Shown piece after piece: positions 39,010 through 41,691 of a stretch of 64,000 nucleotides of DNA (position 1 is its first letter; every line of letters starts with the position of its first letter). The stretch covers positions 35,048 through 99,047 of the forward strand of contig JAUJOQ010000002.1 of NCBI GenBank assembly GCA_030447725.1, in the 5' to 3' direction. The position numbers were made by a program, and so were the translations under genes. The DNA is from Thermoleophilaceae bacterium (GTDB lineage: Bacteria > Actinomycetota > Thermoleophilia > Solirubrobacterales > Thermoleophilaceae). Under the pieces are notes generated by a model. That model saw only the letters and a program-made list of their open reading frames with translations, ran no database searches and was not told the DNA's origin.

Positions 39010-39471
39010 ATGGACACCACTCGACGAGGCAACTACGAATCCGGCGCCGACTACGTCCTCGAGTACGGAGAGCTGCGGTTCACCTTCAACGAACGCGACT
39101 TCACCGAGCGAGTCGAGCAGGCCGCCGTCAAGCTCGGCTTCGTGTCCGGGCCACTCGGAGACGACGAGCGCGAGGACCTGGTCAACCTGGCCGTGAACGG
39201 CGAGGTGACCGACGCTCACTCCGACCTCGGCGAGCACATCGTCGAGTGCTGGTACGAGCTGCACGGTCCCTCCGATCGCTCACTCGTGCACTGGCTGCGC
39301 CGCCTGGTGTTCCGCGGCGCATGGCTCGATCAGCGGGTGATGGAGGGTGAGCTGGAGGTCATCTTCCATCAGGACACCCACTCGTTCGGCTACGCCCAGC
39401 CCGACCGCGGCTACGAGCCGATCGAGCTCTCCCCCGAGCCTTCCTGGAAGCGAGTGGCCTACCGCCGCTGA
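39010..39471 (+). CDS. Hypothetical acidic protein
   Basis: 153 residues from the ATG at 39010, rich in Asp/Glu, with no signal peptide or membrane segment. Sequence landmarks: GELRFTFNERDFTERVEQAAVKLGF and LVHWLRRLVFRGAWLD. I do not recognise a family. It stands alone between the response regulator (divergent) and the minus-strand group beginning at 39.5 kb. Coding seems likely because the composition is protein-like and the start falls where the frame becomes ordered. Confidence 0.6.
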   Translation: MDTTRRGNYESGADYVLEYGELRFTFNERDFTERVEQAAVKLGFVSGPLGDDEREDLVNLAVNGEVTDAHSDLGEHIVECWYELHGPSDRSLVHWLRRLVFRGAWLDQRVMEGELEVIFHQDTHSFGYAQPDRGYEPIELSPEPSWKRVAYRR

Positions 39472-39743: not shown

Positions 39744-40469
39744 CTAGCTGCCCGCGTGGTCGCCGTCGGCCCGGGGGCGCCGATGCTCGACCTCGTGCAC
39801 CAGCTCCAGCACGCGATCGGGATCGTCGGTCACCTCGATTCTCGAGACATCCTCGGGGGAGATGTTGCCTTGCGCCAGCGCGGTGCCGCGCAGCCAGTCG
39901 ACGAGCCCGCTCCAGTAGGCGGAGCCGAACAGGATGATCGGGAAGTGCCTGATCTTCTCCGTCTGACGCAACGTCGCGGCTTCGAACAGCTCGTCGAGGG
40001 TGCCGAACCCGCCGGGGAAGACCACGAACGCGCTCGCGTAGCGCACGAACATCACCTTGCGGGTGAAGAAGTAGTGGAACTGCAGCCGTAGGTCCACCGA
40101 CGTGTTCAGTCCGACCTCGAGCGGCAGGTCGATCCCGAGCCCGATCGACGCCACACCCGCCTCCCGGGCGCCCTCGTTGGCCGCCTGCATGATCCCCGGG
40201 CCGCCGCCCGTGATGATCGCGAAGCCTTCGCCGCCGAGCCGCCGCGCGAGGTCGCGGGCGTGCCCGTACTCCGGATCGCCCGCCGGGGTCCGGGCCGATC
40301 CAAAGACGGACACCGCCTTGCCCACGTGCGCCAGCGTTGCGAAGCCGTTGCGCAGCTCCTCGGCGATCCGCTCGATGCGAGCGGCGTCGTCGAGCTTCGT
40401 GGCGATCGTGAGCGACTCCGCCTCTAGCAGCTCCTCGTCGGCGCTGGTGGGGTCGCGGGGCTCGGTCAA
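39744..40469 (-). CDS. LOG family (TIGR00730-type) phosphoribohydrolase-like protein
   Basis: 241 residues with AVSVFGSARTP, ITGGGPGIMQAANEGA and the family motif VFPGGFGTLDELFEA. LOG proteins hydrolyse nucleotide 5'-monophosphates such as cytokinin nucleotides to base plus ribose 5-phosphate; the bacterial role is often unclear. The start is a TTG at 40469 overlapping the Rho-like gene's stop as TTGA, so translation is coupled. Confidence 0.88.
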   Translation of the reverse strand: MTEPRDPTSADEELLEAESLTIATKLDDAARIERIAEELRNGFATLAHVGKAVSVFGSARTPAGDPEYGHARDLARRLGGEGFAIITGGGPGIMQAANEGAREAGVASIGLGIDLPLEVGLNTSVDLRLQFHYFFTRKVMFVRYASAFVVFPGGFGTLDELFEAATLRQTEKIRHFPIILFGSAYWSGLVDWLRGTALAQGNISPEDVSRIEVTDDPDRVLELVHEVEHRRPRADGDHAGS

Positions 40470-41623
40470 TCGAGCAGGTCGGCCCTGAGGGTGCCCGACC
40501 GGGCATCCGAGATCCGCGGCTCGCCGGCCTTCTCGGGCGGGTCGAGCCCAATGCGGGTGCTGGCCTGACGCTGGGCCTCCCAGGCCATGCCGGTGGCCGC
40601 GATCACGGTGACCGAGCCGCCCTCCTCGAGGTTGCGGGCCGACCCGAACACCCTCCGTGAGACGCCCGGGGCGAGCGACTCGAGGGAGTCGATCACCACG
40701 ACGGCGTCTCCGCCCCGCTCGGCCAAGCGCTTGGCGCGCTCGACCGCCAGCTCGGCGGCTTGGGCCTGAGCCTCGATCGAGCGGTAGAACGACCCGCCGG
40801 TCACCGGCACGTCGGTCTCGCGGGCCCAGTCTGTGACCTCCTCCGGGCGAACGCCGACGAGCACGACGCTCACCTGGAGGTCGCCGGCCTCCTCGTCGGC
40901 GAGAGTCGAGACGATCTCCCGGAGCAGCCGGGTGGCGCCGGCTCCCGGGCCGCCGGCCACGGCCACCCGGGAGCCCTTGCCCATCGGCACGGAGGCGAGC
41001 GCCTTCGGCGCGGGCAGGGTCTCCCTGGGGTGCACGGGCGTGAGGTCGTCGAAGTGCGGCCGCTCCTCGGGGGGCTCGGCGTCACGGCCGTTGACACTTT
41101 CCACGCGCACGAGCGAGGGGTGGCGCTCGTTGCGCCGGGCGCGACGCAGCGGCCCGCTGACCTCGTCGCCCGCGCGCAGCTCGCAGCGCCGGATCTGGGC
41201 GGGAGAGACATAGACGTCATTCGAGGGAGCAGCGCCGACGCGGATGAATCCACTGCTGTTGGGAAGGATGTCGAGCGTGCCGGTTACCGGCTCGCCGGAG
41301 GGGATGCCGTCCTCAGGCGCCTCGTAGGGCTCTTCGATGTGCGCGGGCTCGGCAGCGGTCTCCTCGACCTGGGGCCTAGACCGCGACCGCGATCGACCTC
41401 TGGACCTCGGCGCCGGCGCCTCTTCCCGGAGGTTGGCGTCTGCCTTGGCTCGGTCATCGGGTAGGGACCGGCCGCTGTCCTCGCCCTCGTCCCCCTTCAG
41501 GATCGCAGCGATCAGATCCTCCCTGCGCAGTGTGCGGTAGCCCTCGATCGTCAGCTCGGAGGCGATCGCGTGGAGATCGGCGAGCGGGCTGTCTTCGAGC
41601 TCCTGGCGCTGGAGAACTGACAC
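40466..41623 (-). CDS. Rho-like protein with degenerate ATPase (predicted pseudoenzyme)
   Basis: 385 residues that align with transcription terminator Rho: a Rho N-terminal helical domain (about 8-44), an Arg/Ser-rich spacer, the RNA-binding cold-shock-like domain (112-180; LDILPNSSGFIRV), and a shortened ATPase half (about 200-385). Known Rho has a P-loop APPKAGKT; here it is GGPGAGAT, without the lysine. Rho's DERPEEVTD is GVRPEEVTD. The Q-loop stretch between the Walker B strand and FGAARN is missing (IDSLESLAPGVSRRVFGSARN), and the R-loop region is cut. The ending RSGTLRADLL still matches. RNA binding without helicase action is likely. Confidence 0.85.
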   Translation of the reverse strand: MSVLQRQELEDSPLADLHAIASELTIEGYRTLRREDLIAAILKGDEGEDSGRSLPDDRAKADANLREEAPAPRSRGRSRSRSRPQVEETAAEPAHIEEPYEAPEDGIPSGEPVTGTLDILPNSSGFIRVGAAPSNDVYVSPAQIRRCELRAGDEVSGPLRRARRNERHPSLVRVESVNGRDAEPPEERPHFDDLTPVHPRETLPAPKALASVPMGKGSRVAVAGGPGAGATRLLREIVSTLADEEAGDLQVSVVLVGVRPEEVTDWARETDVPVTGGSFYRSIEAQAQAAELAVERAKRLAERGGDAVVVIDSLESLAPGVSRRVFGSARNLEEGGSVTVIAATGMAWEAQRQASTRIGLDPPEKAGEPRISDARSGTLRADLLD

Positions 41624-41691
41624 TGGGGACTGCTCCTTCAGGTGGCTTGCGGGCGGCGAAGGCTAACCGCTGGGGCGGCTCTCTAGGCCGA

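Follow-up and report, generated by a model that had tools for sequence, protein, structure and literature searches.

A motor-dead ortholog of Rho in the Solirubrobacterales

Rho is considered near-universal among bacteria, most of which use this motor protein to stop transcription. The stretch of DNA analyzed here (the window: 64,000 nucleotides of a Thermoleophilaceae bacterium, assembly GCA_030447725.1, contig JAUJOQ010000002.1, positions 35,048 to 99,047) encodes a protein that is recognizably a Rho and yet has lost its motor. This raises a puzzling question: What is left for a Rho to do without a motor, and how do the cells that carry it end their transcripts? We use the label Rho* for the motor-dead Rho descendants of the order Solirubrobacterales, the window protein included, and rho* for their gene. 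Cells of the high-GC actinobacterium M. tuberculosis die rapidly when Rho is depleted (PMC5379054). The order described here, a large one of high-GC Actinobacteria with cultured members, has lost the motor while retaining the RNA-binding part of Rho at an unchanged locus; we found no paper naming a motor-dead, order-wide Rho among the open-access publications searched.

Motor motifs in the window protein and across the order

In the window protein, Pfam places both Rho_N and Rho_RNA_bind above the gathering cut-off, in agreement with the earlier note on this DNA, which had read the N-terminal and RNA-binding domains of Rho in it, and the RecA-like part matches ATP-synt_ab slightly below the Pfam cut-off. 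The rho equivalog model TIGR00767 matches residues 6-318 with 196.1 bits and falls far short of its cut-off of 509.45. A phmmer search of the PDB returned Rho entries only. The AlphaFold2 model is confident (mean pLDDT 87, low only in the linker at about residues 46-110), and its best PDB matches by Foldseek are all Rho, with about 311-327 columns at 2.5-3.2 Å in chains whose domains superpose.

To define the losses, we took E. coli Rho as the reference for an alignment of 129 distinct Rho* proteins with 52 canonical Rhos from actinobacteria. Motor and RNA-site residues are numbered as in E. coli Rho, the reference sequence used being consistent with the PDB alignments. The alignment bears out the degenerate motifs noticed earlier: GGPGAGAT in place of APPKAGKT, GVR in place of DER (GVRPEEVTD versus canonical DERPEEVTE), and deletion of the Q-loop and R-loop. 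The Rho-specific segments FGSARN, GGSVTVIA and RSGT, also claimed at that time, are retained. The arginine finger R366, which lies in SGTR in E. coli, is lost (SGTL), as are K181 and R353. Compared with the Rhos of the TIGR00767 family (E. coli, Thermotoga, M. tuberculosis), Rho* has the same domain order, Rho-specific segments, fold and chromosomal position, while the window protein is without K181, K184, E211, R353, R366, the Q-loop, the R-loop and the C-terminus. The short-form paralog Rho2 (NF041509) is likewise a non-standard Rho, and its model gives a weak match over the cold-shock/OB RNA-binding domain (CSD) and the RecA-like domain (154.6 bits, far short of the cut-off of 628); unlike that paralog, Rho* replaces Rho instead of accompanying it.

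Are these losses peculiar to one genome? Not one of the 129 Rho* proteins retains K181, R366, the Q-loop or the R-loop lysine K326, and only three retain R353; K184 is found in 65 and E211 in 26, the two never together. In the canonical set, K184, E211, D265, R353 and R366 are each present in 52 of 52. Thus the alignment of orthologs, a check that the earlier note had proposed, shows the motor losses to be conserved across the order. The manner of loss differs among its families (f1 to f61 are anonymous family labels): f3 has the P-loop PRSGRT with DERPEE intact, f2 has GKT or GKS with GVR, f1 has GAT-like P-loops with GVR, and f4 has AAAT. In the tree, Rho* forms one clade (SH-aLRT 97), split into f3 and f1+f4+f2, and K184 changes five times and E211 three times over the whole tree. 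The tree has long branches, and its placement of Rho* among other unusual Rhos of actinobacteria could be artifactual, while the unity of Rho* is supported. This topology is most simply read as placing the loss of the Q-loop in the ancestor of the order, with the catalytic losses later and separate.

Distribution, synteny and selection

Could a canonical Rho be encoded elsewhere in these genomes? The genome of the window (3.17 Mb in 13 contigs, 93.75% complete) contains no second rho by profile search, Rho* being its sole Rho; the only other protein picked up by this search is the F1-ATPase beta subunit. NusG is present. Among 151 Solirubrobacterales genomes, none has a Rho above the TIGR00767 cut-off and 149 have a weaker match (97 of those well assembled), while the identical search run phylum-wide as a control finds a Rho above the cut-off in 168 of 198 genomes. 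By contig scan, carriers of Rho* include metagenome-assembled genomes of Thermoleophilaceae and Solirubrobacteraceae, Solirubrobacter soli, S. phytolaccae, S. deserti and S. taibaiensis, Conexibacter and Patulibacter. Six further genomes searched whole (five of them named strains, the six including these four Solirubrobacter species and a Conexibacter strain) likewise contain no canonical rho. The earlier note had suggested that the protein might join Rho rings and modulate termination, which would make it a regulatory subunit that joins or poisons rings of canonical Rho. Its fold and family resemblance to Rho would suit such a role, but with no canonical Rho in its own genome or in any searched genome of the order, mixed rings have next to no chance of being the explanation.

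We also surveyed the class, using 229 genomes with a completeness of 90% or more. Of these, 141 encode the Rho RNA-binding domain, as a single copy each. By our count, 33 genomes, in families f6, f8 and f9, have canonical Rho (615-667 bits when intact), and 108, all in the order of the window, have Rho*. Genomes with no match to the CSD comprise 12 of the 120 well-assembled genomes of the order, 73 genomes of families f5, f7, f10 and f11, and three exceptions in f6 and f9. A canonical second rho is thus ruled out by the searches of the window's own genome, the order and the class, and origin as a paralog after duplication is ruled out by synteny together with single copy. In two genomes, from single- or few-contig assemblies, the gene is split over two reading frames, possibly by sequencing error: rho* in G134 (L181) and canonical rho in G210 (L182).

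The synteny is informative about origin. Canonical loci have the order metallophosphoesterase, a gene which we take, from our own reading of the sequence, to be cyclic-2,3-DPG-synthetase-like, 2-phosphoglycerate kinase, a presumably GlpX-like gene or a fructose-6-phosphate aldolase, and rho. (The kinase, aldolase and phosphoesterase are named from family matches, and gene calls in the context loci are mechanical.) Rho* loci of f1 and f4 read metallophosphoesterase, synthetase-like gene, kinase, rho*, and in many loci of f2 and f3 the aldolase precedes rho*. Because these upstream genes are common to canonical and Rho* loci, the motor died in situ: Rho* is the positional ortholog of the ancestral canonical rho.

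Rho* is also maintained under purifying selection, not drifting. Comparison of the window gene with four relatives within its genus gives an overall dN/dS of 0.30-0.43, with 0.18-0.27 for Rho_N, 0.09-0.23 for the CSD and 0.19-0.46 for the RecA-like domain; values are higher in the linker and C-terminus than in the folded domains. A local pseudogene or sequencing error is ruled out by these ratios and by orthologs in dozens of genera. The earlier note had looked to a canonical rho elsewhere in the genome, and to local decay as the alternative. No other rho exists here, and what we find instead of local decay is a motor-dead Rho that is shared across the order, orthologous by position and maintained by selection.

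A probable static RNA-binding role and its alternatives

How could such a protein act? A Q-loop mutant of Rho, P279S, was not rescued under any tested condition, and ATPase activity is required for termination (PMC1950744). M. tuberculosis Rho mutated at the catalytic Glu equivalent to E211 has no unwinding activity, and a competent ATPase pocket is required for termination (PMC4499133). Because known Rhos need both the Q-loop and a competent ATPase, Rho* should not terminate by translocation. At the primary RNA site, R66 is kept in 118 of the 129 Rho* proteins, Y80 in 116, E108 in 123, D78 in 107 and F64 in 104 (81-95%). Since selection keeps these residues and the N-terminal half in most lineages, a static RNA-binding role is the best supported. 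We consider it likely that Rho* is a folded, non-motor, static RNA-binding protein, descended in situ from canonical rho, that does not carry out translocation-based termination. RNA binding without ATP hydrolysis, the state that the earlier note had predicted, fits the pattern of site residues kept and catalytic residues lost.

In the scheme that we propose, the common ancestor of the Solirubrobacterales would have lost the Q-loop and other motor elements; families would then have separately lost the P-loop and catalytic residues, and Thermoleophilaceae-like lineages the C-terminus as well. The remainder would consist of Rho_N, a disordered linker, a largely conserved CSD and an inert RecA scaffold. 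Through its primary site, Rho* would bind RNA that is single-stranded and probably rich in C, whether nascent or free, the scaffold perhaps making this binding multivalent, and it would be unable to thread RNA, to hydrolyze ATP with coupling, to translocate or to unwind. Its most likely role would be in masking, marking or sequestering (untranslated) RNA, not in motor termination, and termination in the order would have to rest on something besides a translocating Rho.

Compensation by U-tract intrinsic terminators was considered and rejected. We searched for hairpins rich in GC and followed by a tail with 6 or more T in 8, covering about 344 kb from Rho* genomes, 120 kb from no-Rho genomes and 400 kb from canonical genomes. 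Counts were 14 versus 9.3 in shuffles for Rho* genomes, and 1 versus 1.5 for no-Rho genomes. By this simple scan, U-tract terminators show no general increase that would compensate for a missing motor, in Rho* or in no-Rho genomes. Hairpins at convergent gene ends yielded small samples, and hairpin terminators that have no U-tract may still contribute. As a separate observation, hairpin and T-run terminators are near background in most of the sampled high-GC Thermoleophilia (L254-L293), with Rho present or absent.

The lack of a rise leaves room for a terminator that works without a motor: Rho* might bind RNA polymerase, nascent RNA and NusG, and end transcription by altering the polymerase without translocating RNA. 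If true, this would be a natural case of ATP-independent, Rho-type control of termination or elongation. Rho* is kept, after all, by almost all genomes of the order, in which no motor Rho occurs, and NusG is present in the genome of the window. Moreover, open-ring complexes reported for E. coli Rho with RNA polymerase suggest allosteric weakening of the elongation complex (cited in PMC9908020). However, the open-ring studies still assign the release step to ring closure and translocation; the contact of Thermus Rho with the polymerase is made by the C-terminal domain (PMC9908020), which has eroded furthest in f1 and f2; real Rhos with Q-loop or ATPase mutations do not terminate (PMC1950744, PMC4499133); and sister families live without any Rho. 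Motor-less termination is therefore unlikely.

Is Rho* simply on its way out, a remnant with little or no function? The families that lack a Rho CSD (f5, f7, f10 and f11), and the well-assembled genomes of the order that lack it, would be expected from slow decay, as would the loss of different modules in different lineages. One lineage, G035 (L180:6702-7211), encodes a protein of 169 aa that is Rho_N and CSD only, the RecA part being entirely gone. In f10 and f11, the former rho spot, after the kinase and GlpX-like genes, is occupied by an enoyl-CoA hydratase with a fused, Rho_N-like N-terminus (L246:6630-7469, L248:8964-9779, L249:9762-10601), and in f7 the old rho spot is empty. Decay is nevertheless improbable: reading frames are intact over dozens of genera, dN/dS is well below 1 in every folded domain, and folding is predicted with confidence.

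Several observations weigh against static RNA binding through the CSD. One comes from genus g37 (G092 and G129, in f3), where the CSD is deleted and Rho_N and a shrunken RecA remnant are kept in a protein at the same chromosomal place (L176:7207-8064, L177:5883-6770; arginine-rich linker, model mean pLDDT 73), so that RNA binding by the CSD is not the function everywhere. The primary site is itself altered, F62 being Ser in most Rho* proteins and Y110 variable. Walker B D265 (127 of 129) and R212 (122 of 129) are conserved, an observation not accounted for by a purely inert scaffold, and the f2 proteins, with GKT or GKS and the Walker B Asp retained, could still bind ATP. RNA binding by Rho* is itself a prediction from sequence.

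These exceptions raise the alternative that the retained function belongs to Rho_N or to the RecA remnant instead of the CSD, as an adaptor for protein or nucleic acid. Rho_N is the most widely surviving piece, being found without the CSD in G092 and G129, with the CSD alone in G035 and in the f10/f11 fusions, and its residues L14, L17, H18 and A21 are invariant. Yet the CSD is retained in most lineages, where its dN/dS is the lowest or close to it, and the Rho_N parts of the fusions match below the gathering score (E 5e-5 to 0.02), which makes a pure adaptor quite unlikely. By computed composition, the linkers of f2 and f3 are rich in R and G, which is weak evidence for any function.

It is instructive to compare Rho* with known systems. 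The RNA-binding fragments of E. coli Rho (PDB 1a62, 1a63) have the same Rho_N and CSD layout as the natural protein of G035; those fragments are engineered, while the G035 protein is encoded in a genome; the window protein, for its part, has not shed its dead RecA domain. M. tuberculosis Rho, a poor NTPase and helicase, is also actinobacterial and also altered in its secondary RNA site (K326 to T, PMC8828861). Unlike Rho*, it has lost none of the catalytic residues, and its termination activity depends on a competent ATPase pocket (PMC4499133). The class thus spans a series of natural cases, from the full motor through the dead motor, the RNA-binding domain alone and Rho_N joined to an enzyme to no Rho whatever, in which one can ask which part of Rho cells need and how transcription ends without Rho. 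How soil bacteria of the Solirubrobacterales end their transcripts becomes a testable question.

Neighboring genes and related observations

The features of the locus are collected in Table 1. The earlier note had proposed tight translational coupling of rho* with the adjoining LOG-family gene. The overlap is real, but a functional link is not conserved beyond the genus: LOG adjoins rho* in 2 of 57 context loci, both from the window's own genus, which rules out a general LOG partnership. The convergent open reading frame (ORF) beyond it has no Pfam match over nearly its full length (39016-39471); homologs of it, likewise convergent with rho*, are present in each of the order's four families, with 35 members in the studied loci. 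An Rfam scan around rho* found nothing.

Table 1. Features of the rho* locus (window coordinates; residues of the window protein)
Feature	Position	Strand	Basis or remark
rho* ORF, motor-dead Rho ortholog	40466..41623	-	385 aa, GTG start; AlphaFold2 and PDB fold matches
Shine-Dalgarno AAGGAG	41633..41638	-	9 nt 5' of the rho* GTG; direct sequence reading
Rho_N, residues 8-43	41495..41602	-	PF07498, E 5.2e-12; pLDDT 88-97
Linker, residues 46-112, low-confidence, probably disordered, fast evolving	41288..41488	-	pLDDT about 42-65 over most; dN/dS 0.25-0.81
CSD, primary RNA site, residues 114-183	41075..41284	-	PF07497, E 5.4e-21
RecA-like domain, residues 185-345, catalytically dead scaffold	40589..41071	-	TIGR00767, Foldseek
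Degenerate Walker A, residues 224-231 (K184 to Ala)	40931..40954	-	alignment
GVR replacing DER, residues 257-259 (catalytic E211 to Val)	40847..40855	-	alignment
Q-loop deletion site, about residues 318-322	40658..40672	-	alignment; gap in 129/129 Rho*
R-loop deletion site, about residues 346-349	40577..40588	-	alignment; K326 position gapped or replaced in 129/129 Rho*
LOG-family gene (TIGR00730)	39744..40469	-	TTG start overlaps rho* TGA stop
Uncharacterized ORF of about 153 aa (MDTTRRGNYESGADYVLEYGELRF...)	39010..39471	+	convergent with rho*, LOG between them in the window's genus

Outside the order, the best Rho falls below the cut-off in families f34 (L223, L224, L226, L227, L228), f60 (L225) and f56 (L221) as well. 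The P-loop is altered in most of these Rhos (APPAAGRT, PPSADGT, PPEADGA, EQRGGRS), which suggests that the motor may have been lost independently elsewhere in the phylum.
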